Positions 1,637 through 37,716 of a stretch of DNA of 59,239 nucleotides are shown piece after piece. The position numbers and the translations under genes are program-made. Below the pieces are notes generated by a model that was not told the DNA's origin, did not search any database, and saw only the letters and a list, made by a program, of their open reading frames with translations. Numbering within the stretch: the first letter of the stretch is position 1; each line of letters begins with the position of its first letter. Source of the DNA: Oceanospirillum multiglobuliferum (GTDB taxonomy: Bacteria > Pseudomonadota > Gammaproteobacteria > Pseudomonadales > Halomonadaceae). The stretch is taken from positions 1-59,239 of the forward strand of contig NZ_FUXG01000017.1 of NCBI RefSeq assembly GCF_900167095.1, in the 5' to 3' direction.

Positions 1637-1645
1637 CGAGAAACC

Positions 1646-2553: not shown

Positions 2554-2569
2554 TGGCCTGTATTTTGAC
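2554..2569 (+). promoter_or_regulatory. Weak sigma-54-like promoter candidate for motA
   Basis: TGGCCTG-TATT-TTGAC has GG and the second element at sigma-54 spacing and shares 13 of 16 bases with the candidate in front of flgB, but it has GA in place of the conserved -12 GC and lies about 207 bp before motA. The rest of the 299-bp rhdA-motA gap shows no other site I can support. Confidence 0.22.
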
Positions 2570-2775
2570 TCATTATTAAGCCTTGGCAAACTAAAGATAA
2601 AATGCCAAAAATATAATGCATATAAGCTTACTAGATCATTGCATGCTTTTGGCGAAGATACACTCTAATACAATTTTAGACAAAATGCCCTTTCAGCTAA
2701 TGATTGAGCACAGTACACTCGATGAGAGTAAATCGGTATGTATTAGGCTCATAGGGAATTTAAGGACTTAGCACG

Positions 2776-3627
2776 ATGTTATTGATTATTGGTTCATTAA
2801 TAGTGTTAGCCAGTGTGGGTGGTGGGTATGTGCTATCACATGGCTATTTGCCGATGCTTTGGCAACCATATGAGATGATCATCATTTGTGGCGCAGCACT
2901 TGGTGGTTTTGTTATCTCAAATAGCAAGCATACGTTGATTGAAGTATTTAAGTCGTTACCTAAATTAATCACGGGCTCAGGGCTGAACAAGGCTCTGTTT
3001 ATGGACTTGCTTAGTTTGATGTATGACTTATTCACTAAAATCCGTAAAGAGGGGGTAATTGCAGTTGAGGCAGATATAGAAGAGCCAGACCAAAGCCCAA
3101 TTTTTGCAGGTTATCCTGCCGTTTTTAAGCATAAGGTACTGATAGAGTTTGTCTGTGACTATATGCGTCTGATCAGTTCAGGCAATATGCAACCCCATGA
3201 GCTAGAAAGCTTGATGGATGCTGAGATTGAAACCATACAGCATGAATTAGAAGAGCCTGCGCATGCTGTTACCAGTGTTGCAGATGCCTTGCCTGGCTTT
3301 GGTATCGTTGCTGCGGTATTAGGCATCACGATTACGATGCGTGATATTTCTGCTCCACCAGAAGTGCTTGGGATGCATATTGCCGCAGCACTAGTAGGTA
3401 CATTTCTAGGTATTCTACTTTCTTATGGATTTGTGGGGCCAACCGCGATAGCCATGAAGAATGAAGCCCATGAAAAAGTGAAAGCTTTTGAGTGTGTTAA
3501 GGCTTGCTTGATTGCCAACATGAACGGCCTGCCACCACAGATGGCTGTAGAGTTCGGTCGTAAAATGTTATTCAGCTCTGTGCGTCCAAGCTTTAACGAG
3601 CTGGAAGAGCACGTTCGCTCACGTTAA
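2776..3627 (+). CDS. motA: Flagellar motor stator protein MotA
   Basis: Membrane half of the proton-driven stator that turns the flagellum. The 283 residues hold four hydrophobic segments (about 1-20, 32-50, 168-190, 202-222). Residues match E. coli MotA even in number: Arg90 and Glu98 in the cytoplasmic loop that contacts FliG, and Pro173 and Pro222 by the ion channel. motB follows after 14 bp. It is a MotA-type unit; a second, PomA-type set elsewhere is not excluded. Placement beside rsgA and orn is as known in Pseudomonas. Confidence 0.95.
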   Translation: MLLIIGSLIVLASVGGGYVLSHGYLPMLWQPYEMIIICGAALGGFVISNSKHTLIEVFKSLPKLITGSGLNKALFMDLLSLMYDLFTKIRKEGVIAVEADIEEPDQSPIFAGYPAVFKHKVLIEFVCDYMRLISSGNMQPHELESLMDAEIETIQHELEEPAHAVTSVADALPGFGIVAAVLGITITMRDISAPPEVLGMHIAAALVGTFLGILLSYGFVGPTAIAMKNEAHEKVKAFECVKACLIANMNGLPPQMAVEFGRKMLFSSVRPSFNELEEHVRSR

Positions 3628-3641
3628 CGGTTACGACACCC

Positions 3642-4772
3642 ATGGAAGAAAGTAAAAACATCATTATTAAGCGGGTGAAAAAGGTACAAGGCGGTCATCA
3701 TGGCGGCTCTTGGAAGATCGCAATGGCCGACTTTGCCATTGCCATGATGGCCTTTTTTCTCTTGATGTGGCTGTTGGCTAATACCACTAAAGAGCAAAAG
3801 ATTGAGCTAGAAAAGTTCTTCACTGACCCAGTAGGTTATATGGATAAAGTTGGGCGTTTAACCGCGATCGACTTTGGTGGCTCTCCTTCGATGCTGCAAA
3901 ACAATAATCCTAGTGCTGACTCTGAGATGATTGAACAAACACAGATGCTCAATCAAGACCAGCCAGAGCAATTGGCCGCAGGTATTAAAACCAATGCTGA
4001 AGTGTTGGATGCCTTGCAGAGTACGTTGATTCAGACGGTTGCAGAAAGTGAGACGTTAAAGCAATTCAAAGATCAATTGTCGATTGAAATTGCCCCCGAT
4101 GGTCTACACATCCAAATTGTAGACAGTAAGTTGCGTCCGATGTTTGATCCCGGCAAAGACGAGCTGAAGCTCTACTTTGCTGAAATTCTGTTGCAACTAG
4201 CACCTGTTATTGCACAAGTGAATAACAAGATCAGTGTGAGTGGGCATACAGATGCCAGTAATTATAGCGACCGCGATCACTTTAGTAATTGGGAGCTTTC
4301 TGCTCAGCGTGCCAACGCTGCACGTAGAATGTTGGTTGAAGGCGGTTTGCCGGAAGAGCATGTGGCGCAGGTTGTAGGTTTTGCCAGTTCACAACTTTTT
4401 GATCCCACAAGGCCCACAGATGCCATTAATCGTCGTATTGAGATTGTTGTGCTGAATCGCCCTACTCAAGAGGAGATTGATGAAAGTACAGGAGATGTCA
4501 ACTCGCTGAGTCCAGAGCAAGAGGCGCGTATGAAAGCGGGTGAGCAGTTCCTTTTAGATAGTAAAAAGCCTGAGAGTAAGCCTTACGATAGTACTGATAA
4601 CCCTAAACCTGCCGAGCGTAAACGAGCAGAAAGTACAGCGGGTGATTTAAACGAAGGGCGTAATTCGATCGCACCAAAAGCAGATGTAAAACCTAACGAG
4701 GTTTTTAACTCGTTGGAGTCTATTTTATCTAAGCCTGAGTCGCCTTATGTACCACCACCTGAGGTCAGGTAA
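3642..4772 (+). CDS. motB: Flagellar motor stator protein MotB
   Basis: Peptidoglycan-anchored half of the stator. A basic cytoplasmic start is followed by one membrane helix (about 27-50) with the proton-carrying Asp30 in WKIAMADFAIAMMAFF. The plug region comes next, then an OmpA/MotB peptidoglycan-binding domain (about 140-272) with SGHTDAS and an NRRIEIVV end. The last ~100 residues are a Pro/Glu/Lys-rich, probably disordered tail ending in PPPEVR, longer than in E. coli MotB (376 against 308 residues). Co-transcribed with motA; a strong terminator follows. Confidence 0.95.
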   Translation: MEESKNIIIKRVKKVQGGHHGGSWKIAMADFAIAMMAFFLLMWLLANTTKEQKIELEKFFTDPVGYMDKVGRLTAIDFGGSPSMLQNNNPSADSEMIEQTQMLNQDQPEQLAAGIKTNAEVLDALQSTLIQTVAESETLKQFKDQLSIEIAPDGLHIQIVDSKLRPMFDPGKDELKLYFAEILLQLAPVIAQVNNKISVSGHTDASNYSDRDHFSNWELSAQRANAARRMLVEGGLPEEHVAQVVGFASSQLFDPTRPTDAINRRIEIVVLNRPTQEEIDESTGDVNSLSPEQEARMKAGEQFLLDSKKPESKPYDSTDNPKPAERKRAESTAGDLNEGRNSIAPKADVKPNEVFNSLESILSKPESPYVPPPEVR

Positions 4773-4794
4773 ACGGTTTTAGGCCTAAGTCTCA

Positions 4795-4830
4795 CAAAGC
4801 ACCACTCGTTTGAGTGGTGCTTTGTTTTTT
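4795..4830 (+). terminator. Terminator of motAB, probably bidirectional
   Basis: A 13-bp perfect stem CAAAGCACCACTC / GAGTGGTGCTTTG with a GTTT loop and six T ends motAB. It lies in the 71-bp gap between the convergent motB and rsgA stops and may serve both. Confidence 0.9.
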
Positions 4831-4843
4831 AGGGAGATGAAAC

Positions 4844-5869
4844 TTAAAGCTCATCAAGAGAGTCAATGATACGATGATAGCTTTCAAAGCGCTCTTGACT
4901 GATCTCTCCTGCCTCAAGCGCGCTGATGAGTGCGCATCCTGGCTCGCGTTTATGGCTACAATCCCTGAACTTACAAGTGCCTAAAATAGGATCGAACTCC
5001 CTAAACCCGCTGGCGACCTCTCGGGCGTCCATATGCCACAAACCAAACTCACGAATACCGGGAGAGTCAATTAAATCACCGCCAAAAGGTAGGTGGAAGA
5101 GCATCGCTGTAGTCGTAGTATGCATCCCTTTTCGGGTTTGCTCTGATAGCTCGCCTACTCGAATATTAATGCCTGGTAATAAGGTATTGACCAGTGATGA
5201 TTTACCTACACCAGATTGTCCAACAAACACGCTAATTTTCTGGTCTAGTAGTGATTTTAATAATACTAAGCCATCTTCATCTTGGGTTGAGGCTGTGAGC
5301 ACTTTGTAACCAATGTTTTGATAGCGTTCTGCCATCTCCATCAGCCTAGGTGCATTGTCCTCATTTAACAGATCTGTTTTATTTAGTAATAAAACAGGTT
5401 CGATGCCAGTATTCTCCGCTGCGACAATATAGCGGTCGATCAGATTGGCATGTGCATAAGGCTCAGGGGCAAAGACAATAATAATATAGTCAATATTGGC
5501 TGCGACGGGCTTAAGCTGGCCACGAGAATCTGGACGTGATAGGGAGTTTCTGCGCTCCATACGAGCTTCAACAACACCATCTTGACTAGGGCCGGGTCGC
5601 CATACAACTTTATCCCCAGTCACTAAAACCTCAAGATTAGCACGCATATAGCAACGACTGATCTGCCCCTTGTTCACCCCAGACAGACATTCAACATCAA
5701 CCTGCCGGCCATAGTGAGCAATGATCAACCCTTCTTGCTCGGTGCCCAGTTCCCCTGCATTTAACTGTTGGTCGATCAGACTGTCACGCTTGCCCACACG
5801 GGAGGCGCGTTCGTTTTGAATTTTCTCAATTCGCCATTGCTGGCGGCGATTCAGTTTTCTTTTGCTCAT
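4844..5869 (-). CDS. rsgA: Small ribosomal subunit biogenesis GTPase RsgA
   Basis: Late 30S assembly factor whose GTPase is stimulated by the ribosome. It has the family's circularly permuted G domain: after an OB fold (about 45-110) come G4 NKTD (163-166), G1 GQSGVGKSS (217-225) and G3 DSPG (268-271). The C-terminal zinc knuckle is Cys299, Cys304, His306, Cys312. Length 341 is close to E. coli's 350. Transcribed leftwards from the gap shared with orn; the rsgA/orn neighbourhood is widespread in gammaproteobacteria. Confidence 0.96.
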
Positions 5870-6091
5870 GCTTAAGTTTCAGCCAAAAAGTGAAGCTTGA
5901 TTCTAACGGTTTTCCGTTTTGCTTGCCTGCACCTTTATTTAAAATCCCATCATGGGGTCAAAATCAGCAAAGGCTACTGATTCCCGTCAAATCCCCCTAT
6001 ACTTAGCATCTATTATCAGTTAATACCTAATATTGCTATCCGCAGGGCTTGCTTAGGCTGACGGATCTATTGTGTCAGGAGAATAAAGAAG

Positions 6092-6631
6092 ATGGTTAAC
6101 GCAAATAACTTGGTATGGATAGATCTTGAAATGACAGGCTTAGACCCTGAGCGAGATACCATCATTGAAATTGCCACAATAGTGACGGATTCGGAGTTGA
6201 ATATAATTGCAGAAGGGCCAGTTTTTGCAATAGGTAAACCAAAAGCGCGTATGAATGAAATGGGTGAGTGGTGTACTAAGCAGCATGGCTCTTCAGGTTT
6301 AACACAGCGGGTCTTAGAAAGTACTGTAACGATGCAAGATGCTGAGCGTCAGACAATTGCCTTTTTGGAACAGTATGTAGGGAAAGGGCAATCACCTATG
6401 TGTGGTAATAGTGTGCATCAAGACCGCCGTTTTTTATGCAAAGAGATGCCTCAGCTTGAACAATTTTTTGACTATCGCCACTTAGACGTAAGTGCAGTGA
6501 AAATTTTAGCTAAACGCTGGTATCCAGATGTGGCAAAGGGCTTGAAAAAGAGCGGCTCCCATTTGGCAATGGATGATATTCGAGACTCGATTAATGAGTT
6601 ACGCTATTACCGTGAGAACCTTCTAAAGTAA
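6092..6631 (+). CDS. orn: Oligoribonuclease
   Basis: 3'-5' exonuclease that finishes RNA decay by cleaving dinucleotides, including pGpG, the product of c-di-GMP breakdown; that matters in a window with three EAL proteins. The DEDDh set is complete: Asp11 and Glu13 (WIDLEMTG), Asp111 (SVHQD), His157 and Asp162. The 179 residues match the family. The start has an AGGAG site about 12 bp upstream. A terminator follows at 6661. Confidence 0.97.
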
Positions 6632-6660
6632 GTGTGTAGTTGTTAGCCCTAAGTTGATTG

Positions 6661-6693
6661 AAGCCAGAGCAGATTAAGTGTTCTGGCTTTTTT
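6661..6693 (+). terminator. Terminator of orn
   Basis: An 11-bp stem AAGCCAGAGCA / TGTTCTGGCTT (one G-T pair) is followed by a T run. It touches the end of the convergent queG gene, whose stop lies at 6692. Confidence 0.8.
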
Positions 6694-7792
6694 ATTGATG
6701 CTGATGAAGTGCCCAGAGGACATGCTCTTGCACCAACGGTGATTCATGATCTAGCCGTGTATTTAGAGCTGATAGTACCTCATTGCTTGTCGGTGCATTA
6801 CCGAGTGCCACGGCGATATTACGCAGCCAACGCTCATAACCTGCTCTGCGAATAGGTGTGCCTTCAGTTTTACTGAGAAAGGTCTCTTCATCCCACGCAA
6901 ATAGTTCAACAAGGTCTACACGGTCTAGGTTATGACGAGGGCTAAAGTCTGTTTCTTGAGTATGTTGGCTGAAACGGTTCCATGGGCAAGCCAGTTGGCA
7001 GTCATCGCAACCAAATATACGATTACCAATCCCTTTTCTCAGGGGCTCCGGTATAGCGCCCTTTAGCTCAATAGTGAGATAAGAGATGCAGCGTCGAGCA
7101 TCTAACAGCTTATCGCCCACAAAAGCCTGAGTTGGGCAGACTAAATGGCACTGTCGACAGGAGCCACAATGATCTTTGGGATAAGGTTGGTCAACGGGTA
7201 GAGCTAAATCAATTAAGATTTCCCCTAAGAAGAAAAAAGAGCCTGCTTTGGGGTGTATCAGCATGGTGTTTTTGCCTATCCAACCCAACCCTGAGCGCGT
7301 TGCTAAAGCACGCTCTAGTAACGGGGCGCTGTCTACAAAGGCACGATAGCCTAAGGGTTTGATTTCCTGTTCGATTTGCTTCGCCAATTGGGTTAACCGC
7401 TTGCGAATTAGTTTGTGATAGTCACGTCCCAAGGCATAGCGTGAGATATAGGCTTTATCTTTTTGGCTTAAAAGTGTAGTGGTTTCAATATCAGCAGGTA
7501 AGTAATCCATGCGCGCAGTGATGACTGTTTGAGTACCTTCAACCAACTCATTTGGGCGGCTACGCTTATGACCATGACCAGCCATATAGCTCATTTCACC
7601 ATGATAATCATTGTCAATCCAAGCTTGCAGATATTGCTCATGTTCTGCCAGCTCAGGCTGTGCAAACCCAATCTGTTGAAAGCCTAGCTCACGCCCCCAA
7701 ACTCGAATTTGCTCACGGAGGGCAAACCGATCTTGCTCAGTGGTTAATGCCTTTAAGGGATGGCTTTGTGAAGTAAAAATTTCTGCTGACAT
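6692..7792 (-). CDS. queG: Epoxyqueuosine reductase
   Basis: Last step of queuosine synthesis: cobalamin-dependent reduction of epoxyqueuosine in the anticodon of tRNAs for Tyr, His, Asn and Asp. The 366-residue protein has the conserved Asp154 (FVDSAPLLER) and two 4Fe-4S motifs, CGSCRQCHLVC (Cys209, 212, 215, 219) and CDDCQLAC (Cys262, 265, 269), followed by the HEAT-like C-terminal region. Monocistronic and divergent from nnr. The stop falls inside the orn terminator stretch, so the two convergent genes are tightly packed. Confidence 0.95.
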   Translation of the reverse strand: MSAEIFTSQSHPLKALTTEQDRFALREQIRVWGRELGFQQIGFAQPELAEHEQYLQAWIDNDYHGEMSYMAGHGHKRSRPNELVEGTQTVITARMDYLPADIETTTLLSQKDKAYISRYALGRDYHKLIRKRLTQLAKQIEQEIKPLGYRAFVDSAPLLERALATRSGLGWIGKNTMLIHPKAGSFFFLGEILIDLALPVDQPYPKDHCGSCRQCHLVCPTQAFVGDKLLDARRCISYLTIELKGAIPEPLRKGIGNRIFGCDDCQLACPWNRFSQHTQETDFSPRHNLDRVDLVELFAWDEETFLSKTEGTPIRRAGYERWLRNIAVALGNAPTSNEVLSALNTRLDHESPLVQEHVLWALHQHQ

Positions 7793-7899
7793 ACTGATAT
7801 AATGCCGAGAGTCGCAATCAAAAAAAGAGCGGCCAAGCTTAAAGCATTAAAGACGTAACTCAAGCATTGTCTCTAATATCAAAGTGTAAAGGTGTTGAT

Positions 7900-9429
7900 A
7901 TGAAAGTTTGGCCTATTCATGAGCGTTTATATAGCGCTGCGCAAGTGAAACAGCTTGATCAGCTCACCATTCAGTCTGGTACAGCTGGTTTTGAACTGAT
8001 GAAACAGGCTGGCCGTACCGCTTTCAGACACTTATTACGTAAGTGGCCTAATTGTGCATCTGTGACTCTGTTCTGCGGTTCTGGTAATAATGCGGGTGAT
8101 GGTTATGTGATGGCTGTTTTGGCCAAAAAACAGGGCCTGCAAGTACAGCTGGTTGCAGTTACTGATCCTGAATATTTAAAGGGAGAGGCCCAGGAGGCTT
8201 ACCAATGGGCTTTAAGTTGTGGGCTTAGTGCTCAAAGCTGGCCTATTAGTGCAGAATCTATTGAGGGCGATGTTATTGTGGACGCCTTGCTTGGAACGGG
8301 GCTGACAGGTGAGGTACGTGCGCCTTTTTCTGAGGTGATCGAGCTGATTAACCAGCACCCTGCTTCGGTTTTATCTGTTGATATTCCTTCAGGTCTTTGT
8401 GCAGATCGAGGTGCAGTTCTGGGTTGTGCCGTAAAAGCGGATTTAACCGTCACTTTTATTGGGAAAAAACTGGGTTTATGGACAGGGCAAGGCCCTGCGT
8501 TATGTGGTGAACGTCGCTTTGAACCGCTGTTAGTGCCAGACTCAGTACGACAGTTAGTTCCAATGACTGCTCAAATGGTCAACCCTGAATCTATTCCTCG
8601 TTTGCTAAAGCCTCGCTCTAGAACTTCACACAAAGGTGATCATGGTAGAGTGTTAGTTGTTGGTGGTGATTATGGTTATGCGGGGGCTATTTTATTAGCA
8701 GCGCAATGCGCAGCACGCTCTGGTGCAGGCTTGGTTAAAGTCATGACGCGACCTGAACATGTAGCGGCCTTAGTGGCACGTCAGCCTGAATTAATGGTTG
8801 AAGGTATTACGTCAGTACACCAACTGGATCAATGGCTGAGTTGGTGTGATGTGGTGGTATTAGGGCCTGGGCTTGGTCAAAAAGGATGGGGGCAGCAAAT
8901 TTGGCACAAGGTCATGCAGGCGAATTGCCCAAAGGTATTGGACGCCGATGCGCTTAATTTAATGGCAAGTAAAAAGGCAATGCTGGCTCGATTACAAGCA
9001 GAAGGGCTTAATAATTGGGTGTTAACTCCTCACCCAGGAGAGGCTGCGCGCATGTTGCAAAGCTCTGTTGCAGAGGTTGAGTCTGATCGGCCATTGGCAG
9101 TTGCCAATATCCAGCGGCATTATGGCGGTGTTGTTTTATTAAAAGGTGCGGGAACTTTGATCCGTTGTACAGATCGATTATCTGTTAACAATAGTGGTAA
9201 CCCCGGAATGGCCAGTGGTGGCATGGGCGATGTATTGTCAGGCTTGATTGCTGCACTTCTAGCACAGGGCTTAGCAGCCTATGAGGCGACTTGTTTGGCG
9301 GCTCAAGTGCATGGCCTAGCGGCTGACCAGCTGGCCAAACAGTTTGGTGAGCGGGGATTGTTAGCCGCAGATCTTATTCAGCCTATTCGAGTATTACTAA
9401 ACCCGGAGTGTGAGTTAAATGCCGTTTAA
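7900..9429 (+). CDS. nnr: Bifunctional NAD(P)H-hydrate epimerase/dehydratase
   Basis: Repairs damaged NAD(P)HX. The N-terminal half (about 1-215, YjeF_N) with GSGNNAGDG is the epimerase; the C-terminal half (about 220-500, kinase fold) with SGGMGDVLSG is the ADP-dependent dehydratase. I start at ATG 7900 (MKVWPIHERLYS), which has AAAGGTG 7-8 bp before it; an in-frame TTG at 7867 would add 11 residues without a better ribosome site. tsaE overlaps the end by 11 bp, so the two are translationally coupled, as in E. coli and Pseudomonas. Confidence 0.93.
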   Translation: MKVWPIHERLYSAAQVKQLDQLTIQSGTAGFELMKQAGRTAFRHLLRKWPNCASVTLFCGSGNNAGDGYVMAVLAKKQGLQVQLVAVTDPEYLKGEAQEAYQWALSCGLSAQSWPISAESIEGDVIVDALLGTGLTGEVRAPFSEVIELINQHPASVLSVDIPSGLCADRGAVLGCAVKADLTVTFIGKKLGLWTGQGPALCGERRFEPLLVPDSVRQLVPMTAQMVNPESIPRLLKPRSRTSHKGDHGRVLVVGGDYGYAGAILLAAQCAARSGAGLVKVMTRPEHVAALVARQPELMVEGITSVHQLDQWLSWCDVVVLGPGLGQKGWGQQIWHKVMQANCPKVLDADALNLMASKKAMLARLQAEGLNNWVLTPHPGEAARMLQSSVAEVESDRPLAVANIQRHYGGVVLLKGAGTLIRCTDRLSVNNSGNPGMASGGMGDVLSGLIAALLAQGLAAYEATCLAAQVHGLAADQLAKQFGERGLLAADLIQPIRVLLNPECELNAV

Positions 9430-9907
9430 TCAAGAATCACAGGCAACCTTTACTATTGAGCTGGCGGATGAGTCTGCACAGGTGGCTTTTGGGCAGCGTT
9501 TAGGGCAAGCCTGTAATGGTGAAGGATTGATTTTTTTGCAAGGTACATTAGGAATGGGGAAAACAACTTTAACCAGAGGTATTTTACAAGCCTATGGCCA
9601 TAAAGGAGCTGTTAAAAGCCCCACTTATACACTAGTTGAGCCTTATCAGTTGGACACTGCGCAGATCTATCACTTTGATCTTTATCGTTTAGCTGATCCA
9701 GAGGAACTAGAATATATAGGGATTCGCGATTACTTCTCATCGCCAGCTTTAAGTGTAATCGAATGGCCTGACAAAGGTACTGGCATATTACCTGAGTCAG
9801 ATATGGAACTGACATTAACCAAAAAAGATGATGGGCGTCAGGCCTTATTAGTAGCAAATACGCAACGGGGTGCTGCAATTTTGAGCAAGCTCCGTACAAT
9901 GGACTGA
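9419..9907 (+). CDS. tsaE: tRNA t6A biosynthesis ATPase TsaE
   Basis: ATPase that recycles the TsaBD complex making threonylcarbamoyl-adenosine (t6A) at A37 of ANN-decoding tRNAs. Walker A reads GTLGMGKTT (usually GAGKTT), and the family signature DLYRLADPEELEYIG follows. The 162 residues are normal for the family. It overlaps nnr and is followed after 33 bp by the amidase gene, a conserved order. Confidence 0.94.
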   Translation: MPFNQESQATFTIELADESAQVAFGQRLGQACNGEGLIFLQGTLGMGKTTLTRGILQAYGHKGAVKSPTYTLVEPYQLDTAQIYHFDLYRLADPEELEYIGIRDYFSSPALSVIEWPDKGTGILPESDMELTLTKKDDGRQALLVANTQRGAAILSKLRTMD

Positions 9908-26227: not shown

Positions 26228-26395
26228 CATTTTTCCATGCTAATACTGTAAGTGTGAGACTGCTTGCTGAGTGGAATGCAGTTTTTTGCTTCTATGTTTG
26301 ACCTGCCGCATAGCCTTGGCACTAGTAGATTTGTAATACTCTGTGGCTAAATGTGTTATTTCGTTGCGAAGTGCTGGTTTACAGGTGTGTGTTTG

Positions 26396-29074
26396 ATGTT
26401 CAAAGTTCTACAAATAGTGATGCAGCTAGTGCTGTTAAGTACATTTAGCTCGTTGTCTTTTGCGGATAACCTGCAAACTAATACACTGACAACCGATGAG
26501 GCTAAGTGGGTTTTACAGCAAGGTGGCACTTTGCGCTTAGGTGTTGCTTATGTACCGCCCCATACGATGGAAAAGGATGAGTCGGGTCGCTATCGTGGCG
26601 TAGCAATGGATTTTTTACACCTACTAGAGTCTAGAATTGGCATTCATTTCGAGCCAGTCTATTTCCCATCATATAGTGCGGTATTGCAGGCGGCGAAAAA
26701 TAAGCAAATTGATGTTGTATTTGCGGTTTCCTATACAGATGAGCGTGCAAATTACTTGTCTTTTACCCAGCCTTATACCTTTCTTGCAAATAAAATACTG
26801 GTGCAAAAAACATCACCTCGGTATGACAGCTTAGATCAATTGTCTGGGAAAAGTGTTGCGGTGATTCGCGGCACAGCGATGAATGCACACCTTAAAAATA
26901 ATTATCCTGATATTCAGCTTGTTGAACTAAAAAGCTCAAGAGATGTTGTCATTGCACTTGCGGCGGGTAATGTTGATGCTGGTATCTCAGTTGTTGCCAG
27001 TGCTTGGCCCCATATCAAGGCAGAGGGTATCAGCAATATAGAAGTGGTTGGCGATACTCACTTTCATTATGCAGTGAGCTTTGGTAGCCGGAAAGATTGG
27101 CCTATTTTGGCTACTGTGCTTGAGAAAGGGCTGCTACAGATTACGGAAGCGGAAAGGGATCAAATCCATCGACGTTGGCTTTATCCTGATCGAACAGATG
27201 GTGTAAGCCTAGATCTGGTGGTCAGATATGCCTCTATTACTGGGGGTATTATTGCATTATGTATGATGCTGTTTGGTATGTACTGGATTCGTCGTCTGCG
27301 TTTAGAGGTCAAACATCGCGAAAAGGTCGAACAAGCACTGCGTAACAGTGAGCAGAGGTTTGAGCTGGCTATTCGAGGAACCAACGATGGTATTTGGGAC
27401 TGGGATCTGTTGTCTGATGAGATTTATCTTGCACCTAGGGTTCAAGAAATACTGTCCTCTTATGCCATCAGTTCAGATGGGCTTGTGCATAAAGGTATTA
27501 ATCACTGGATAGACCGCATTAATGCTAGTGAGCAAGAAAAAGTACAGCAGGCCATTGATCAACATCTGGCCTTTAAACAACCTTTGGATATTGAGTATCG
27601 GTTAAAAAATGACCTAAATGAATGGATTTGGGTGCGTATGCGTGGTCAGGCCTTATGGAACGAGCGCAATGAACCTATTCGTTTTTGTGGTTCTATCATG
27701 GACATTACGCAGCGCAAACGAGCAGAAGATGAAGTGCTTAGGCTTGCTTACTTCGATAATTTAACCGGTATTGCTAACCGAGAACGCTTTAAAATTAGCC
27801 TACAAGGTGCAGTGAATAATCTGAATAGCGCATCGCAGTCATTCGCTTTATTTTTTATTGACTTAGATCGCTTCAAAACAATTAACGATACGCTTGGACA
27901 CCGTATTGGTGATCAGCTATTGCGCCATATTGCGCAAAAGCTACGCACTTTGTTACCACCCTCTAGTGTGTTGGGTCGCTTGGATGGTGATGAGTTTGCT
28001 GTTCTGTTGGAGCAGCCTTATGACCGCTCAGATTTGGCGGCACTGGCACAAGAAATATTAGATGCAATTGCTACTCCCTTGCGCATTGAGGGCAATGACA
28101 TTCACTCCTCTGCTAGTATAGGGATTAGTTGGAATACAGCACCTTCTTGTCAGGTGGATGAGGTGATGGAGCATGCTGATGTTGCTTTGTCTGAGGTGAA
28201 GAAAACACAGCGTGGGCGCTATTGCTTCCATACACAAGAGATGACAGAGCGTGTCGCAGAGGCGAATGCTCTGGCGCAAGATTTAGAACATGCGCAAGCG
28301 AATAACGAGCTATTTTTGGTATTTCAACCGCAAGTCAGTTTGTTAACAGAGCGAGTCATCGGTTGTGAAGCGTTGTTGCGCTGGCATCACCCTACAAGAG
28401 GTATGGTATCACCTGCACAGTTTATTCCCGTTGCAGAGGAGCGGGGTATTATTCATGAAATGGGTGACTGGGTTTTAGTGCAAGCTTGTAAACAAGCAAA
28501 ACGTTGGTTGGATGAGGGTGTGGCTTTTGGTCAGATTGGTGTAAATGTTTCGTCATTACAGCTGTTAGATACAGGGTTTGTTGAACGTGTTGCCCGTGTA
28601 TTAGAGGAAAGCGCTGTTCCTGCCTGTTATATAGAACTTGAAATTACCGAAACAGTACTGATGCAGGATATCTCTTTGGCAGAAGATGCCATGCGCGCTT
28701 TAAATCGTTTGGGCATCACCTTTTCAATTGATGACTTTGGTACGGGTTACTCGTCGTTACGTTATCTGCATCGGCTACCAATTGAGCGCTTGAAGTTGGC
28801 TCAAGAGTTTGTGCGAGATTTAAGCCCAGATGAAGAAGTGGCTGTGATTTCGGCGGCATTACAGCTGGGTCGTAACTTGAATATTCCGGTAATTGCTGAG
28901 GGTATTGAAACGCTGGATCAGTTTGCTCTACTACGTGGGCAGGGTTGTGATGAGGGGCAGGGGTATCTGTTTGCCAAACCGATGTTGCCCGCAGACTTCA
29001 AGCAATTTGTGCAGGTTAGTGAGCTTAAAGGTGTGATACCAGAAGCATCAGCTGCTCAGCTGATGGTCAGCTAA
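26396..29074 (+). CDS. Periplasmic-binding-domain sensor with PAS, GGDEF and EAL
   Basis: A membrane sensor of 892 residues. I start at ATG 26396, which opens a clean signal peptide (MFKVLQIVMQLVLLSTFSSLSFA); an in-frame ATG at 26351 would bury it. Then come an SBP_bac_3 (amino-acid-binding type) domain (about 30-265), a membrane helix (about 275-297), a PAS domain (about 320-440), GGDEF (about 450-610) and EAL (about 625-875). GGDEF is altered to DGDEF (530-534), first Gly lost. EAL (658-660), NVSSLQ, DDFGTGYSS and AEGIET remain; after the catalytic Lys the usual KID is KLA. Most likely a phosphodiesterase that answers a periplasmic ligand. Confidence 0.9.
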   Translation: MFKVLQIVMQLVLLSTFSSLSFADNLQTNTLTTDEAKWVLQQGGTLRLGVAYVPPHTMEKDESGRYRGVAMDFLHLLESRIGIHFEPVYFPSYSAVLQAAKNKQIDVVFAVSYTDERANYLSFTQPYTFLANKILVQKTSPRYDSLDQLSGKSVAVIRGTAMNAHLKNNYPDIQLVELKSSRDVVIALAAGNVDAGISVVASAWPHIKAEGISNIEVVGDTHFHYAVSFGSRKDWPILATVLEKGLLQITEAERDQIHRRWLYPDRTDGVSLDLVVRYASITGGIIALCMMLFGMYWIRRLRLEVKHREKVEQALRNSEQRFELAIRGTNDGIWDWDLLSDEIYLAPRVQEILSSYAISSDGLVHKGINHWIDRINASEQEKVQQAIDQHLAFKQPLDIEYRLKNDLNEWIWVRMRGQALWNERNEPIRFCGSIMDITQRKRAEDEVLRLAYFDNLTGIANRERFKISLQGAVNNLNSASQSFALFFIDLDRFKTINDTLGHRIGDQLLRHIAQKLRTLLPPSSVLGRLDGDEFAVLLEQPYDRSDLAALAQEILDAIATPLRIEGNDIHSSASIGISWNTAPSCQVDEVMEHADVALSEVKKTQRGRYCFHTQEMTERVAEANALAQDLEHAQANNELFLVFQPQVSLLTERVIGCEALLRWHHPTRGMVSPAQFIPVAEERGIIHEMGDWVLVQACKQAKRWLDEGVAFGQIGVNVSSLQLLDTGFVERVARVLEESAVPACYIELEITETVLMQDISLAEDAMRALNRLGITFSIDDFGTGYSSLRYLHRLPIERLKLAQEFVRDLSPDEEVAVISAALQLGRNLNIPVIAEGIETLDQFALLRGQGCDEGQGYLFAKPMLPADFKQFVQVSELKGVIPEASAAQLMVS

Positions 29075-30837: not shown

Positions 30838-33800
30838 ATGAAATTACAGTACAAGCTTTACATCGGCTTAACAGCCATTTTAGGTATTTTACTGATTATA
30901 GGTGGCTTGATTTTGGCTCAGGAGGGTCAGAAACGCGAAGCAACCGAACGCTTAATGACATTGTATAGGCCAGCTCAAGCATCCGCCGAAGGTTTGGTGA
31001 CGGCTTTTTCACAGTTTAACTCAGGAGTTACTTCTGGTTTAAACCCGAGTGTTGACGACCCGAGCAAGGTAATGGTTCAGTCGATACAGCTTTTCAATGA
31101 GCATCTAGGCCAACTATCTTCTCTGACACAACTTATACCCTTTAAACAAAGTTTCTCTATTGAGGCTATTGATCAACAGTTTGATGAGGTCTCATTTTTG
31201 GGGCTATCGGTTGTTAACCAATATCGAGAGCTAATACAACAGCAACGTGTTTTAGAAGGCCAAGTCGAGTCTCTAATTGCGCAGTTGGGTAGCGTGTCTG
31301 GTCAGCGTTACCCAGATACCTTATTAATGCAGCGTGATTTACTTAAGCTGAGCTTGTTCATTGCTTCACCTTTGCATCGTTCAGAATTGTATGACGCAAA
31401 TCGTTTATTGCAGTTAGAAAATCAATTGGTGAGGCGTATTAAGGCTATTCAAGCAGATTCTGAGCTGAGCTACCTACTTGATATGACAGAAATGGGGTAT
31501 GGGCTTGGTGAAGTACGCACACTTTATGCGCGTATTATTAATGTATTCAACACCTTCTATGTGAAGCGTAATCAATACGAGCAGGCACAGCAGAGGATGC
31601 AACAGCTATTAGAGGCAGCCAATAAGGTTGTAAATAGCAATGGTGCTCAGGCATTAAACCAGTTGCAGGCGATTACAAAAAATAGCACTCATATTGAATA
31701 TGTACTGATTCCCTTGGGGATTATTATTGCTGGGTTGTTGGCCTATCAAACTGCATCAAGAATTCGAAAGCCGTTAGAGCAGCTATTAGAGGCGACACGT
31801 TTTGCACAGCAAGGTGATTTCTCGTACCGAATTGAAATAGAGTCTTCCGATGAAGTCGCCCGCTTAGCGCATCATTTTAATGAGATGATGGATAGGCTTG
31901 GCTCGATTACAGTTTCTAGAAGCTACTTGCAGCAAGTACTTGATACAGTCTTGCATGCGGTTATCGTTGTGGATGATGACTTCAAAATGAAGTTTATTAA
32001 TACGACAGCAGCCACTTATTTTCCTAATAAGGCTCAGGTTGGTGCTTCTATTTTTAACTGTAGAACTGACGAAGGCGCTTTCTTACTAAATGAGCCAGAT
32101 CGTTGTTTATTAAGAGAAAAAGGAGAGCTTTTAGGTTTAGAGAAACCAATACGTTTAGTGTCTGGTCAGCGGCTTATAGTGGCAATGAATGTGGCACGTT
32201 TGTCATTGAATGAAAGCCAGCATTGGGTCATTACGTTGCACGATATTACGGCAATTAAAAATGCTCAGCGTAGCCTAAATCTGTATGCCAAGATATTTGA
32301 AACCTCTAATGATGCCATTGTGATTTCAAATAAACACAACGTGATCGAGCAGGTAAACCCTGCCTTTACACAAATTACGGGTTATAGCGCAGATGACGTG
32401 GTCAATCAGAACCCTAATATACTCAGTTCAGGTAAGCAGGATCGAGACTTTTACAAGAAAATGTGGGGCGAGCTGCTGATGTATGGACGTTGGCAGGGGG
32501 AGATATGGAATCGTAGAAAATCTGGTGAAGCTTATGCTGAATGGTTATCTATAGTCGCTATTCATAATGAATATGGCTTGATTGAGCGTTTTGTAGGTGT
32601 CTTCAGTGATATTACTCAGCGTAAGGAAGCAGAACAGTTAATCCATCGTCAGGCTAATTATGATGCTCTAACAGAACTACCCAATCGACGCCTTTTTTGG
32701 GATCGACTGGCTCAGGCGCTTTTACAGTCAGATGCTTCTCAACAGGGCGTGGCGCTACTGTATGTTGATTTAGATGGCTTTAAACCCGTAAATGACACCT
32801 ATGGTCATGAGTATGGTGATTTGCTACTGAAGCATGTAGCCGATAATTTGAAGGCATTGGTCAAAAATACTGACACGGTGGCACGTTTGGGTGGTGATGA
32901 GTTTGCGATCCTACTACCTGCATTTGATCGGGACAAGTTAGAAGGGCTGGCAGGTAAAATTGTCCATGATTTAATGCAGCCAATAGAGATTAAAGGTAAG
33001 CAGATCTATATTGGTGCAAGCGTTGGTATTAGTACTTATCCTGATATTGCGCAAAGCCAAGAGCAACTGATACATCAAGCTGACTCGGCAATGTACTACG
33101 TGAAGGCGGCCAATAAAAATAACTATGCTGTTTATGATGAGCAGATGGAATTACTTGCTAGCCAACGGATGCAGCTAGAACAAGACCTTAATAGCGCCGT
33201 TGATAATCAACAGCTTGAGGTTATTTTTCAGCCTATGTTTGATGTGAAAAGTAATCGTATTGTTTGTGCGGAGGCACTATTACGCTGGCAGCATCCAGAA
33301 AAAGGCCAAATCATGCCGGATGTTTTTATCCCAATAGCTGAAGAAAGTGGCTTGATTCAGCACATTGGTCACTGGGTATTGAGAGAGGTTTGTAGGCTGG
33401 CGGTATTACAGATGTCAGAGGTTGGCTTTGTAAAGGTTGCAGTCAACATCTCACCGAAGCAGTTTATGCAGCCTGATTTTGTTTCTGGTTTAGCGCAGAT
33501 ATTGAACGAAACAGGATTCCCCGCAGAATACTTGGAGCTTGAAATTACAGAGCGCTTGATCTTTGATGAGCTAGCAGCTACTTCTGTTGTGATGCAAAAA
33601 CTTGCTGATTTAGGGGTGAGTATTGCCATTGATGATTTCGGAATTGGCTATGCGACCTTGAATGATCTTAAGCGCTTCCCTGTTAAAGAGCTAAAGTTTG
33701 ACCGTAGTTTTATCAAAGAGATTCGTCGAAGCCACGACGATCAAACAATGATTAGAGCCTTAGCAGATATGGCACACCAGATGGGGATGAAAGTTGTTGC

Positions 33801-33966
33801 CGAGGGTGTAGAAGATTTGCCAAGCCTTGATTTACTTAAAGCAGCAGGTTGTGATTTGGTTCAAGGCTTTGTCTATCACGAAGCGATGAGCATGACCTCT
33901 TTGGTGCGGTTGCTTGATCAGCAAAATACGCAGCCCAATAGTAACAACAAGTATCCCAGTGCTTAA
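30838..33966 (+). CDS. Membrane sensor with HAMP, two PAS, GGDEF and EAL
   Basis: A 1042-residue c-di-GMP protein. A membrane helix (about 7-27) is followed by a helical periplasmic domain (about 28-285) without known ligand motif, a second helix (about 288-306), HAMP (about 307-360), PAS1 (about 365-475), PAS2 (about 482-600), GGDEF (about 612-770) and EAL (about 785-1025). Both catalytic motifs are intact: GGDEF 685-689, EAL 812-814, with NISPKQF, EITERL, DDFGIGYA and AEGVED. It could be bifunctional. Single gene with its own terminator, beside the ODP/receptor block. Confidence 0.92.
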   Translation: MKLQYKLYIGLTAILGILLIIGGLILAQEGQKREATERLMTLYRPAQASAEGLVTAFSQFNSGVTSGLNPSVDDPSKVMVQSIQLFNEHLGQLSSLTQLIPFKQSFSIEAIDQQFDEVSFLGLSVVNQYRELIQQQRVLEGQVESLIAQLGSVSGQRYPDTLLMQRDLLKLSLFIASPLHRSELYDANRLLQLENQLVRRIKAIQADSELSYLLDMTEMGYGLGEVRTLYARIINVFNTFYVKRNQYEQAQQRMQQLLEAANKVVNSNGAQALNQLQAITKNSTHIEYVLIPLGIIIAGLLAYQTASRIRKPLEQLLEATRFAQQGDFSYRIEIESSDEVARLAHHFNEMMDRLGSITVSRSYLQQVLDTVLHAVIVVDDDFKMKFINTTAATYFPNKAQVGASIFNCRTDEGAFLLNEPDRCLLREKGELLGLEKPIRLVSGQRLIVAMNVARLSLNESQHWVITLHDITAIKNAQRSLNLYAKIFETSNDAIVISNKHNVIEQVNPAFTQITGYSADDVVNQNPNILSSGKQDRDFYKKMWGELLMYGRWQGEIWNRRKSGEAYAEWLSIVAIHNEYGLIERFVGVFSDITQRKEAEQLIHRQANYDALTELPNRRLFWDRLAQALLQSDASQQGVALLYVDLDGFKPVNDTYGHEYGDLLLKHVADNLKALVKNTDTVARLGGDEFAILLPAFDRDKLEGLAGKIVHDLMQPIEIKGKQIYIGASVGISTYPDIAQSQEQLIHQADSAMYYVKAANKNNYAVYDEQMELLASQRMQLEQDLNSAVDNQQLEVIFQPMFDVKSNRIVCAEALLRWQHPEKGQIMPDVFIPIAEESGLIQHIGHWVLREVCRLAVLQMSEVGFVKVAVNISPKQFMQPDFVSGLAQILNETGFPAEYLELEITERLIFDELAATSVVMQKLADLGVSIAIDDFGIGYATLNDLKRFPVKELKFDRSFIKEIRRSHDDQTMIRALADMAHQMGMKVVAEGVEDLPSLDLLKAAGCDLVQGFVYHEAMSMTSLVRLLDQQNTQPNSNNKYPSA

Positions 33967-33981: not shown

Positions 33982-34011
33982 ATTAAGCCCACAGATGTGG
34001 GCTTAATTTTA
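33982..34011. terminator. Terminator between convergent genes
   Basis: Perfect 11-bp stem ATTAAGCCCAC / GTGGGCTTAAT with an AGAT loop followed by TTTTA on the + strand. It probably ends the GGDEF-EAL sensor mRNA and perhaps the leftward ODP operon too. Confidence 0.85.
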
Positions 34012-34040: not shown

Positions 34041-34784
34041 TTATCTGGCTGATACGCCAGTTCCTACCTCTAGCTCATCTAGCCAATCTAAGAAACGCTG
34101 TACATCTCGACCCTTGAATATCGCTCCATGCTGTGGTGCTAAATACTCAATTTCGAGCTGGCGTACACGACGTACCCAGTCTTTTTTGGCACGATTTGAT
34201 GGCATCCAACGCTGATGGAATAGACGCATTTTATCCACATGGGCATCAAAGTCTTCAACAAATAAAGGTGCATTGTCAGGCAGCAATGCAGCACCAATAT
34301 CTCCACTCATCAAAATCTTGGCTTGTGGGTCATAGACACTGAAATTACCAGAAGAGTGCATATAGTGTGCAGGAATAAACTGTAGCTCAACTTCATCTAA
34401 ACGAATACTTTTGCCTTCGTCTGGCAATGGATTATAACGAATGCTGTTACAGCCGAAATGACGTAGAAAGCCTTCCCATAACCAAGGGGCATATAGTTCA
34501 GCATGAGGCAGTGTTTTATCCCATAAACCAAGAGAGGAGATAATGTCAGGGTCTTGGTGTGAGGCAAACAGATGGGTAATCTGGTTAATCGGGACATGAT
34601 GTACAACCGCCGCTAACATAGCGGAGAATAGCTCAATACCACCCGGATCTAGCATGATCGCATGATTGGTGGTTTTGATCATATATTGGTTGGTATCAAT
34701 GATCTTGCTTGGACGCTCTTCATCTCGACCAAACACCAGCCATTCATGGCTGCGACTTTCATGTAGTTTGACAACTTTCATCAT
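34041..34784 (-). CDS. ODP-type di-iron metallo-beta-lactamase-fold sensor protein
   Basis: A 247-residue cytoplasmic protein of the metallo-beta-lactamase fold, without the flavodoxin domain of FprA flavodiiron enzymes. The likely di-iron ligands are all present: His76, Asp78, Asp80 (HQDPD), His143 (AHYMHSSGNF), Asp162 (SGDIG) and His219 (PQHG). HxDxD in place of the hydrolase HxHxDH fits the oxygen-binding di-iron protein (ODP) group, of which a Treponema member feeds chemotaxis. It lies 35-36 bp behind the mini-receptor gene on the same strand, most likely one operon. The role in oxygen or iron sensing is inference; nitric oxide or peroxide are alternatives. Confidence 0.78.
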   Translation of the reverse strand: MMKVVKLHESRSHEWLVFGRDEERPSKIIDTNQYMIKTTNHAIMLDPGGIELFSAMLAAVVHHVPINQITHLFASHQDPDIISSLGLWDKTLPHAELYAPWLWEGFLRHFGCNSIRYNPLPDEGKSIRLDEVELQFIPAHYMHSSGNFSVYDPQAKILMSGDIGAALLPDNAPLFVEDFDAHVDKMRLFHQRWMPSNRAKKDWVRRVRQLEIEYLAPQHGAIFKGRDVQRFLDWLDELEVGTGVSAR

Positions 34785-34819
34785 TCGTATCCGTGCTGCT
34801 GAATAGTTTGCTTGTCCGA

Positions 34820-35428
34820 TTAACGCTCAAGAGAGCGGCGGCATTTGCTGGCAATATGTTTAATGCGGTTAGCGGCTTTTTCGAGCTTGATCACAATCCC
34901 CTCTAGGCTAGCTTGGTAGCTGTCAGCCGCAGTTGCAGCCTCTAATCTTGAGGTTGCTGTTACCACGTTGGCGGCAAGCATGCGGGATTCAATTTCATCT
35001 AATAACTCAAATAATTTGCGCATGTGCCGGCGTAGTTGCATCGCTTGTTGATGATGAGTGTTGGATGCCTCGGCAGCAATAGTATCAATGGTATCGCCAT
35101 AGGGGGCTAAGCTGGCTTTTTGTTGTGCGCGCTTAAAACGATTGTGTGCATCCGAGCTGTGCAGCTCAGCAAGTGAGGTGCGCGACAACACTAGGGCTTC
35201 ACGGTTGATCTCTTTTACAAGCCAAATGGTGTCATTGGCTAGCTCAACCATAAAGTCTGTGATGGGTTTGAAGGTTCTAACATTGTCTCCCGCTCTTGCT
35301 ACTAATGCTTTGGCATTCATGGCTTCAAGAGAAATGTTCTTAGCTTCCGTTAATACAACGCTCAATTCAGCTGCTACTGTGGCGGCATTGATAAAGAAGT
35401 GAGCGCTATTCTTTCTATTTGAGTGCAT
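34820..35428 (-). CDS. Soluble chemoreceptor-tip-like protein
   Basis: A 202-residue helical protein with no membrane segment, HAMP or Cache domain. A stretch near the N-terminus (about 28-67) resembles the receptor hairpin tip: EAMNAKALVARAGDNVRTF here against [19 protein letters not shown] in the neighbouring receptor, and about 13 of 33 positions agree without gaps over the tip. The rest is long amphipathic helix, as in a short four-helix bundle. ATG 35428 is chosen; a TTG at 35437 is in frame. Co-oriented with and just upstream of the ODP gene, so it may carry the ODP signal to CheA/CheW or to another array component (inference). Confidence 0.65.
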   Translation of the reverse strand: MHSNRKNSAHFFINAATVAAELSVVLTEAKNISLEAMNAKALVARAGDNVRTFKPITDFMVELANDTIWLVKEINREALVLSRTSLAELHSSDAHNRFKRAQQKASLAPYGDTIDTIAAEASNTHHQQAMQLRRHMRKLFELLDEIESRMLAANVVTATSRLEAATAADSYQASLEGIVIKLEKAANRIKHIASKCRRSLER

Positions 35429-35437: not shown

Positions 35438-35778
35438 CCATTCTGTTGTTGCTGAGAAATATCCTGTTGCGCTTAATTATGGTGAGCTGTCGGTCAGATG
35501 ACAACTTTTACCTGTGCGAAAGCCTCTTTTATTTATGCTATCCGTAAGATGTTCTTTTTAAATAAGCAACATTGGTTTATCTGGTCTATTTTAGAAGCTG
35601 TATTAGAGGAAAACACTCAATAGAAATAAAAACTCTATTGATTAGTTTTTATTGCACGACGAAAGTATTATTCTTCAACTAAGGTCTGGTGTCGCGTTGC
35701 CTCATCAGAGAAAAATAATAAACCGCTCGAAGTAAAATACCCTTGCTTTGATGCTGACGGCCAAAAGCTGTTGAGGTC
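35438..35778. other. 341-bp divergent intergenic region
   Basis: Separates the leftward mini-receptor/ODP operon from the rightward chemoreceptor and should hold both promoters. It contains the inverted repeat CAATAG...CTATTG near 35617-35640 and no ORF. TAAAATAC near 35731 followed by GCTGACGG is only a poor match to a flagellar sigma-28 promoter. Confidence 0.45.
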
Positions 35779-37716
35779 ATGATGTCGAATCAAACTTTTG
35801 CGTTAGGTAGCAAGTTGCTACGCCCTGTAATTATCACAACGGTTGTCTTGGCCGTGGTGCAGACATTACTTTTTGTTTCTCTGACTCGGTCAGGTGGCCA
35901 TAATTTGGTACAAGAAGTTAGTGCTAAGTTAAGTGCAGAAAATGGAAAAGTTTCAACAGAATTGAGTCATGCCAGTGATCGCGTAAACAGCCGTATCAAT
36001 GAAATGGCTGAAGGCGTATCGGTTAAACTGGCTGCAAATCTTAAACAGCAGCTCGATCAAGAGAAAATGGCAACGGTAAAGTTGCTTGAAAACTCATTAT
36101 TAGACACCTCACGCAATATGGCTGTGCTGCTGGCAGCCGTAGCTCCTCAAGCAATCTGGGATCGAGATACACCACAGCTTACTCAGTATGTAAAGATGGC
36201 GCATGAAAGTGGACATGTGGTTTTTGCCGGTTATTACGATAGCTTTGGCAAGCGCATGACCCGATACCTAGATCGTAAGAACGAACTCGTTAAAGAACTT
36301 ATGGCACAAGGTGGCGAAGGTGCTGCACTTGATCGTGTGATTGCCGCGGCAAAAAGTCATCCCCGTGTGATGTTAATTGAGCAGCCTATTAGCCCAAGCG
36401 GCGCTGAGATTGGCCGTTTTGTGCTGGGCGTTAGCCGTGATACGGTAATATCTAATACTGAAAAAATGGAGTCAGGCTTTAATACGCTGACGAAAAACAG
36501 CATTGACTCAGTTAAAACCAGTTTGACTGAAGGTGCTAGTAAAACCGTTGCTGACCTGCAAACCCGTTTAGATGCTATTCAGTCTCACAATGATGGCGCA
36601 CGCCAAGCCACTGAGAATCATATTGAAAATGCTTCAACCGATATGGTTGAACAGATGACTATAGTATCTCTGGTCAGTGCTCTAGTCTTAACCGTTGTAT
36701 TAGTATTTGTTTTATCGGTTCGTATTTTGAACCGTGTGAATATCTTAACGGATGCATTGTCTGATCTATCAGAGGGTGAGGGTGACCTGACGCGTCGTAT
36801 CAGTGTGAAAGGTAGTGATGAAATCGCTTTAATGGCGGAGAAAGTGAATCACTTTGTACATGCCATTCAAGTAATTGTTGGCGATGTGCAATCTGTTGCT
36901 AAGCATACAACGGGGGTAGTTGATGCGATGCATCACAGTAATTTACAAGCCTCAGATGCTTCTAGCCGCCAGCAACAGGCCGTTGAACTGGCAACTGCCG
37001 CAGTGGCTCATATTGCCGATAGTGTTGCCGAAGTTGGTAGCAGTATTACGCATACCCTGCAAAATGTGGACAAGATTCGTACCGAAACAGGTCAAAGCGC
37101 TTCTATTTCTAGGCAAGTGCGTCACGATATTGAAGCCTTAGTAAAAGATGTGCAAACAACAGCAGAGGTGATCAATACCTTAGCAAGCCAAAGTGATCAA
37201 ATTGGCGATGTTTTGGACATGATCAAAGCCATTGCTGAACAAACCAATTTACTGGCATTGAATGCTGCAATTGAGGCGGCACGAGCAGGTGAAAGTGGTC
37301 GAGGCTTTGCTGTAGTTGCGGATGAGGTCAGAACTTTAGCGAGTAGAACTCAGCAATCAACAGAAGAGATTGAGTTGAAAATTGATCAATTACAAGCAGG
37401 GGCTAAGCAAGCAGTACAGGCTATTAATGATGCCGGAGAGATGGCGAAGCGCAGTATTGCAGCTATTCGTCAGTCAGATGAGCGCCTTGCTAATGTAAAT
37501 GAGTCAGTTGCAGACCTACACGCGATGTCGAGTGATATGACGCGGATGACACAAGAGCAAGCACAGCGTACAGAGAGTATGACTGCAAGCTTAGAGCAAA
37601 TTTTTACCGAGTCTCATATTACCTCGGATGCGGTAGGTAAAGCTGCTCAAACTAGCCAAACTTTAGAACAGCTTGCCCATGAGTTAGGCCAGAAAGTAGG
37701 TCGCTTTAAAGTTTAG
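35779..37716 (+). CDS. Methyl-accepting chemotaxis protein
   Basis: Transmembrane chemoreceptor of 645 residues: membrane helix (about 15-35), helical/Cache-like periplasmic domain (about 36-298) with a [19 protein letters not shown] core, second helix (about 299-322), HAMP (about 323-377) and a cytoplasmic coiled-coil. The tip (about 485-524) has the invariant [19 protein letters not shown] and [12 protein letters not shown]. It ends GRFKV with no CheR-docking pentapeptide. Ligand unknown. Its start is about 350 bp from the divergent mini-receptor gene; a strong terminator follows. Confidence 0.95.

Follow-up and report, generated by a model that had tools for sequence, protein, structure and literature searches.

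A candidate oxygen/iron input to chemosensory arrays: a soluble tandem receptor-tip protein encoded with an oxygen-binding di-iron protein in Oceanospirillum multiglobuliferum

The TIP gene of Oceanospirillum multiglobuliferum is located directly upstream of the ODP gene, on the same strand, and it encodes a soluble protein that is best read, at the level of sequence, as an internal duplication of the chemoreceptor tip, with two hairpins in tandem. The ODP gene encodes a member of the oxygen-binding di-iron protein family. Taken together, the profile comparisons, the gene pairing and the chemotaxis gene context described below make it probable that TIP, as a single-chain pseudo-dimer of receptor tips, is the route by which ODP feeds its O2/Fe state into the chemosensory arrays. 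In the proposed mechanism, TIP would replace the cytoplasmic tip of a receptor dimer by one soluble chain that has no sensor; its hairpins, joined head to tail, would fold into a four-helix bundle with the two tips at the same end. The co-transcribed ODP would bind O2/Fe at its di-iron site and change state; this state would be passed to TIP by direct contact, and TIP would relay it to the chemosensory array and hence to CheA.

The window, that is the whole analyzed stretch of 59,239 nucleotides (contig NZ_FUXG01000017.1), contains the pair at positions 34041..35428, exactly where the initial annotation had placed it. The features of the locus are as follows.

35779..37716, plus strand: divergent membrane chemoreceptor with HAMP and MCPsignal domains (Pfam), the next gene beyond TIP
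35476..35504, minus strand: promoter-like site TTGTCA-17-CATAAT upstream of TIP (consensus scan)
35437, minus strand: in-frame TTG upstream of the TIP ATG
34820..35428, minus strand: TIP, read as a soluble tandem receptor-tip protein of 202 aa (ATG start, homologs)
35174..35386, minus strand: N-terminal tip-like hairpin of TIP, residues 15-85 (ungapped 71-column profile match to receptor tips)
35270..35290, minus strand: first tip turn, G47-F53, corresponding by alignment to Tsr G390-F396 (alignment; break in the ortholog model)
34862..35020, minus strand: C-terminal tip-like hairpin of TIP, about residues 137-189 (78-row profile match)
34785..34819, minus strand: spacer of 35 bp from the TIP stop to the ODP start
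34041..34784, minus strand: ODP, oxygen-binding di-iron family member of 247 aa (Pfam, solved ODPs)
34545..34559, minus strand: HQDPD metal-ligand motif of ODP, with H76, D78 and D80 (alignment)
34365..34367, minus strand: metal ligand H140 (alignment)
34299..34301, minus strand: metal ligand D162 (alignment; Asn in 12/51 homologs)
34206..34208, minus strand: W193 (Trp in TIP-linked ODP rows)
34128..34130, minus strand: metal ligand H219 (alignment)
33982..34007, minus strand: terminator-like stem of 11 pairs, 3' of ODP (consensus scan only)

Promoter-like sites such as the one 5' of TIP were not above chance (3 found, 4.5 expected). At the position of the divergent receptor gene an MCP was found in 5/5 other Oceanospirillum loci, and the window's genome contains 53 receptor signalling domains. 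Two large GGDEF-EAL proteins are encoded near TIP-ODP on the opposite strand (window 26351-29074 and 30838-33966), one with a solute-binding domain and the other with HAMP and PAS domains.

The pairing of TIP with ODP was strict wherever it was followed. Among 58 genomes, namely the window's and its relatives, the search for TIP gave 12 strong matches (E up to 4.4e-16), and an ODP gene lay directly behind all 12 on the same strand, at a distance of -4 to 69 bp; the weaker TIP matches of this search lie in frames of at least 405 aa. A genome-wide scan of one genome per species (84,980 species), performed with two peptide patterns that miss more divergent TIPs, returned 51 TIP loci with ODP behind in 51/51, the two genes overlapping by 4 bp in 30/51. 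These loci belong to Oceanospirillum, Allopseudospirillum, many Pseudoalteromonas, Reinekea and Terasakiella, as well as to two MAGs titled Methylocystaceae and MAGs of Gynuella, Algicola and others; the TIPs of five Oceanospirillum species, the nearest named relatives in the scan, are 88-90% identical to the window TIP. Among 398 genomes of the phylum, five strong short-frame TIP matches were found, the window's included, again with ODP behind 5/5.

A reverse survey started from ODP. Across the class, 369 genomes yielded 97 strong ODP matches, and all 94 outside the window's genome were examined; the window's genome adds three, one TIP-linked and two not. TIP was encoded upstream of 31 of the 94 surveyed gammaproteobacterial ODPs, the remaining 63 being without it, where TIP was assigned at E up to 0.01 (weakest assignments L142 at 0.002 and L171 at 1e-4). 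The motif RW[ML]xSN was present in 31/31 TIP-linked ODPs and in 0/63 of the others. The di-iron sensor and the receptor-tip protein had been regarded by the initial annotation as one unit, which a survey of the neighbourhood could check; the pair proved to be conserved, with ODP adjacent in every TIP case examined.

The relation of TIP to chemoreceptors was analyzed by profile comparison with 30 of the genome's 53 receptor domains, cut around the tip motif that was found in 30/30. The first TIP alignment (A3, 47 rows) held 46 of the 51 scan loci plus the window; the absent loci L057, L066, L067, L069 and L071 are likely near copies. A further alignment (A4) held 44/51 scan loci plus the window. 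The 47-row profile matched the own-genome receptors with P 5e-7 over 71 columns, ungapped through the turn, and with 78 rows the first half of TIP matched the receptors with P 1.4e-12 and a score of 73, the shuffled null being 27.7 +/- 7.4. The homology to the hairpin tip therefore includes the turn, and the receptor-tip-like N-terminal part that had been noticed in this soluble protein stands beyond the shuffled null. The second half matched weakly with 47 rows (P 0.013 against receptors, at a probability of 3%; P 2.7e-4 against the first half), and its strong match arose only after 31 survey rows had been added to the 47: with 78 rows, P was 2.6e-7 against receptors (score 42.5, null mean 21.6) and 4.8e-7 against the N-terminal hairpin (score 35.4, null mean 16.1). 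None of 60 heptad-block shuffles reached any of the three scores. The three alignments (N-terminal half with receptors, C-terminal half with receptors, and half with half) share one register in which tip is placed on tip. Because the halves match receptors and each other in this one register, the receptor tip is taken to have been duplicated within TIP, and the single tip initially proposed is to be replaced by two in tandem, the tip-like C-terminal half having been overlooked. TIP carries two receptor units in one chain, which are tips only and not whole signalling domains.

Solved receptors were also matched by the TIP family profile, namely 3g6b (4.9e-8), 4jpb (2.5e-7) and 3ur1; 4jpb is presumably the receptor fragment of a CheA-CheW complex. 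The window TIP scored 14.2-14.6 bits against MCPsignal PF00015 and missed the cut-off of 34.6. MCPsignal was found at E up to 0.1 in 38/47 rows of A3 (best 3.5e-7), and eight further TIPs scored 18.1-32.9 bits, all below the cut-off. Because all these scores fall under the cut-off, domain annotation overlooks the TIP family. Searches with Pfam gave no membrane, sensor, HAMP or adaptation domain in TIP. Some 46 residues precede its first tip, which is too short for methylation helices, whose place this is in Tsr. Weak TIP matches to Med2, WelO5, MltF, PPR and ferritin (Pfam/NCBIfam/PDB) were rejected as chance matches of helical proteins, and a whole-length profile alignment to 2ch7 was rejected as coiled-coil run-on.

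Two structure models of TIP were compared, and they disagree on the first turn, so that the four-helix reading rests on helix boundaries. The AlphaFold model of a Pseudoalteromonas ortholog has helices 4-52, 55-106, 110-163 and 166-204 (pLDDT 88.2, pTM 0.80), with breaks at both tips according to DSSP. The model of the window TIP has helices 4-107, 111-165 and 169-201 (pLDDT 90.2, pTM 0.83); residues 4-107 form an unbroken helix and the first tip turn is absent. The window model would suit a plain coiled coil, in which a single 104-residue helix retained only a sequence memory of tips and TIP served as a generic dimerisation partner of ODP. This alternative is rather unlikely, since the ortholog model breaks at the tip, the receptor alignment runs ungapped through the turn with the turn Gly (Tsr G390) kept in 73/78 TIPs, and a Pro (Pro55) stands directly behind the turn in 50/78. 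A tandem of two tip hairpins is accordingly the fold that we prefer for TIP, as a prediction.

The ODP of the window was assigned to its family by Pfam ODP PF19583 (E 2.3e-75, 253 bits, cut-off 27.2) and by the solved ODPs 6qrq and 6qnm (E 8e-63 and 2e-59). A complete di-iron ligand set had been claimed for it and is indeed present: H76-x-D78-x-D80, H140, D162 and H219 align with the ligands of both solved ODPs. The residue at position 193 was Trp in 51/51 and 32/32 TIP-linked ODP rows of the scan and survey sets, which have no identical sequence in common and may overlap in species, versus Tyr in 65/65 other ODPs and in 2/2 solved ODPs. H76, D78, D80 and H219 were conserved in all rows of both sets (51/51 and 32/32), and H140 was replaced by Gln in one survey row. 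In a quick tree, the 32 TIP-linked ODPs (31 and the window's) formed one branch with an SH-aLRT of 99 and a single label change. The solved ODPs 6qrq and 6qnm lay outside it, and the window ODP thus differs from them in its branch and in having W193 in place of their Tyr. Equating W193 with the second-sphere Tyr197 of flavodiiron proteins was rejected, as the alignment is too poor there. The core is metallo-beta-lactamase-like (flavodiiron 4dik, E 4e-6).

At D162, Asn was found in 12/51 TIP-linked ODPs (L042, L055, L058, L059, L061, L065-L069, L071 and L072). Eleven of these are of the P. luteoviolacea type and just 47-49% identical to the window ODP; the twelfth, L042, is a separate case with 58% identity. 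Judging by the ligand change, this minority may not be ordinary di-iron proteins, the normal di-iron chemistry having perhaps been lost with TIP kept.

ODPs were also observed in other settings. Two more are encoded in tandem on another contig of the window's genome (L139, G000:C17, 5679-8500), 41-44% identical, and they precede, on one strand, a 396-aa HD-domain protein (HD_5, with an HD-GYP-like motif); this set likely represents a second ODP output, perhaps c-di-GMP. A different ODP group lies between small proteins, the downstream one of which is a Roadblock/LC7 domain protein in L152 (972-2574), with a similar protein, judged by its first residues, at L145, L148, L153, L154, L157, L160, L161 and L166; it is a possible further signalling partner of ODPs. 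Many ODP matches elsewhere in proteobacteria lie within open frames of about 600-1,200 aa, which suggests fusions with other domains.

The gene context connects the pair with chemotaxis. A cheW or cheR gene was present in the stretch examined around 8/31 TIP-linked ODPs versus 0/63 other ODPs; the stretches had median lengths of 6,000 and 8,701 bases, respectively, and 8/31 is a lower bound. The order is mcp-cheW-cheB-TIP-ODP-cheR in L199, where all genes except TIP were named by Pfam, and mcp-cheW-cheW-TIP-ODP-cheR-cheB in L200, where both cheW genes and cheR were named by Pfam and the rest by profiles and phmmer. The six other pairs in che context were identified by profile and phmmer; cheD stands between cheR and cheB in L231, and cheA lies directly upstream of TIP in L263 (both by Pfam). 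The genes cheW-mcp-cheR-cheB lie upstream on the same strand in L033 of Terasakiella, an alphaproteobacterium, and downstream are COX1 and heme O synthase-like genes of the UbiA family. The same order was seen in L035 and L037 by phmmer and inspection of translations; L036 is cut off upstream, and its oxidase side was seen in translations. In all, 3/4 alphaproteobacterial pairs are in or beside che operons and also near oxidase genes. The chemosensory role assumed at the outset is thus borne out to the extent that TIP-ODP occurs inside che operons.

Some further arrangements were recorded. TIP-ODP separates the che operon from an operon of cytochrome oxidase and heme O synthase-like genes in L033, L035 and L037 (two Terasakiella and a MAG titled Methylocystaceae), where a stand-alone receiver protein is encoded directly behind ODP (Pfam, L033 only). 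In L207 (G682, 1-9778), TIP-ODP is flanked on one side by a CheB-MCP pair and on the other by a PAS/histidine kinase of 1,418 aa that also contains receiver and Hpt domains. No che genes were found within about 10 kb of the pair in the window or in most Pseudoalteromonas loci, nor was an MCP within about 10 kb in most of the latter. At the genome level, a CheA dimerisation domain was detected in 44/45 TIP genomes; the exception, G046, gave no match to it, yet 8 of its MCPs exceed the cut-off and the CheW domain was matched 4 times, once within a 1,572-aa frame. CheA was found in 35/37 genomes with only other ODPs, and in 30/37 at E 5e-10 or better. The presence of CheA was set aside as a weak discriminator (44/45 versus 30/37 by strong match; Fisher p 0.02, a value made too small by the relatedness of the genomes).

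An output of TIP-ODP elsewhere, through c-di-GMP or another route apart from chemotaxis, would agree with the two GGDEF-EAL proteins among the window's neighbours, with the HD-domain protein that follows the other ODPs of this genome, and with the fact that most pairs of the genome-wide scan do not adjoin che genes. Such an output is nevertheless very unlikely in our estimation: the two GGDEF-EAL genes run on the other strand and do not belong to the operon, and che genes accompany 8/31 surveyed TIP-linked ODPs versus 0/63 others. It is still less probable that ODP is an enzyme of O2, NO or peroxide chemistry for which TIP is merely a scaffold. The superfamily common to flavodiiron proteins and the oxidase genes adjoining the pair in Terasakiella speak for an enzyme; against it, the sole operon partner of ODP is a receptor-tip homologue, and the ODP of T. 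denticola is described as an oxygen sensor.

The reading of TIP as an input to the array was followed at single residues, for which Tsr numbering was obtained by alignment (window TIP residue + 343). In an archaeal receptor trimer model, an inter-dimer ionic lock homologous to Tsr E385-R388' is described (PMC8144572), and E402, R404 and R394 are given as CheW contacts in simulations of the E. coli complex (PMC6954272). In the control receptors of the window's genome, N381, E385, R388, R394, F396 and E402 were present in 30/30 and R404 in 29/30. The first hairpin of TIP keeps N381 (N38) in 78/78 sequences, R388 (R45) in 70/78 and F396 in 65/78, and has Glu at the E385 place in 0/78; in the second hairpin, the E385 place is occupied by Glu (E163) in 72/78 and the R388 place by Arg in 13/78. 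On the CheW face, the window TIP keeps Arg at the R394 place (R51); F59 occupies the E402 place and V61 the R404 place, and these two places are changed in 47/47 A3 rows, the window-type TIPs. Across the 78 TIPs, E402 was kept in 5 and Arg was found at the R394 place in 20, window included; R404 was kept in 9, namely the eight che-operon members and L171, as counted in one MAFFT alignment. The che-operon TIPs have R404 in 8/8, E402 in 4/8 and R394 in 1/8 (one with all three), and the equivalent of R388 is Arg in 4/8 only.

The che-operon TIPs may bind CheW directly, since they keep the CheW-contact Arg, and half of them the Glu. TIPs of the window's branch have lost this Glu and Arg, while lock residues remain at the R388 place of the first hairpin and the E385 place of the second; the most likely role of TIP there is therefore as a member of mixed trimers with the resident receptors. 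Within the dimers of ordinary arrays, one subunit is described as facing the trimer axis and the other as facing CheA/CheW (PMC4692393); because the subunits face different partners, a single chain with unlike halves could fit one place only in the array. A more specific version is offered tentatively: with the trimer lock split between the halves (R388 on one, E385 on the other) and the CheW face mostly dropped, TIP might be an O2/Fe-controlled dopant that slips into receptor trimers, is unable to couple to CheA itself, and needs no membrane, ligand domain or methylation.

The initial annotation had also considered a decoy for CheW, which is unlikely in the window's branch given the replacement of E402 and R404 throughout the window-type rows. 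In a broader form of this idea, TIP would act as a brake by binding array parts outside working units, ODP would set the amount of free TIP, and array activity would follow by titration, with O2/Fe lowering or raising it. The short arms of TIP, which leave no space for an adaptation region, would fit, as would the fact that two of the residues contacting CheW are gone from the window's branch, whereby TIP could poison receptor trimers. We consider such a brake quite unlikely, since the che-operon TIPs retain CheW-contact residues as an active coupler might, and in the T. denticola parallel the receptor homologue to which ODP is described as coupled genetically, one with neither membrane nor sensor parts, modulates CheA (PMC7666581). 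An input through TIP into working arrays is preferred.

If this reading is true, TIP-ODP would show how little of a receptor suffices to influence an array, and it would represent a natural version of engineered single-chain receptors. It would be a compact, genetically simple array input of one soluble sensor and one minimal receptor tip, and ODP signalling would become testable in harmless marine bacteria and in E. coli K-12. The ODP Trp193 and the double-tip profile also provide markers of a family that is missed by current domain libraries.

Already known are ODP itself, ODP-receptor coupling, and natural soluble single-chain receptor-like proteins without a known role. The initial annotation had taken the pair as not described; an ODP with a sensorless receptor is published for T. 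denticola (PMC7666581), and the original ODP study is described as reporting operons that combine ODP and MCP genes, in either of two orders (PMC7319448). ODP is further described as interacting with cognate receptors depending on conformation (PMC6978683). Our literature search found no description of a protein that consists of two tip hairpins alone and accompanies an ODP branch of its own, of the Trp/Tyr split at ODP position 193, or of the disappearance, outside che operons, of the Glu and Arg that contact CheW; the ODP operons of the 2019 PNAS study may include such pairs.

Compared with known systems, the metallo-beta-lactamase-like core of the window ODP is common to flavodiiron proteins such as 4dik and 1vme. 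The window ODP differs in lacking the flavodoxin part. The second ligand of its motif is Asp, unlike the Glu of flavodiiron proteins. DcrH likewise has a di-iron O2 input to a receptor, but there a hemerythrin-like domain is described as fused to a membrane receptor (PMC13401364). As in the T. denticola pair of ODP TDE2498 and sensorless receptor TDE2496, the gene next to the window ODP codes for a receptor homologue devoid of sensor and membrane parts, but this partner is a double tip of 202 aa that scores under the MCP family cut-off. The engineered single-chain Tsr~Tsr, like TIP, joins receptor units in one chain, and it is reported still to signal to CheA; unlike TIP, it is full-length, membrane-bound and man-made, from two copies of the same subunit (PMC4692393). 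The single-chain MCP-like protein of R. centenum, as far as its description goes, resembles TIP in having two receptor signalling units in one soluble chain. TIP differs from it in keeping the tips only, with arms of about 50 residues, in lacking one part of the trimer lock in the first half and another in the second, and in being accompanied by an ODP in every case examined.
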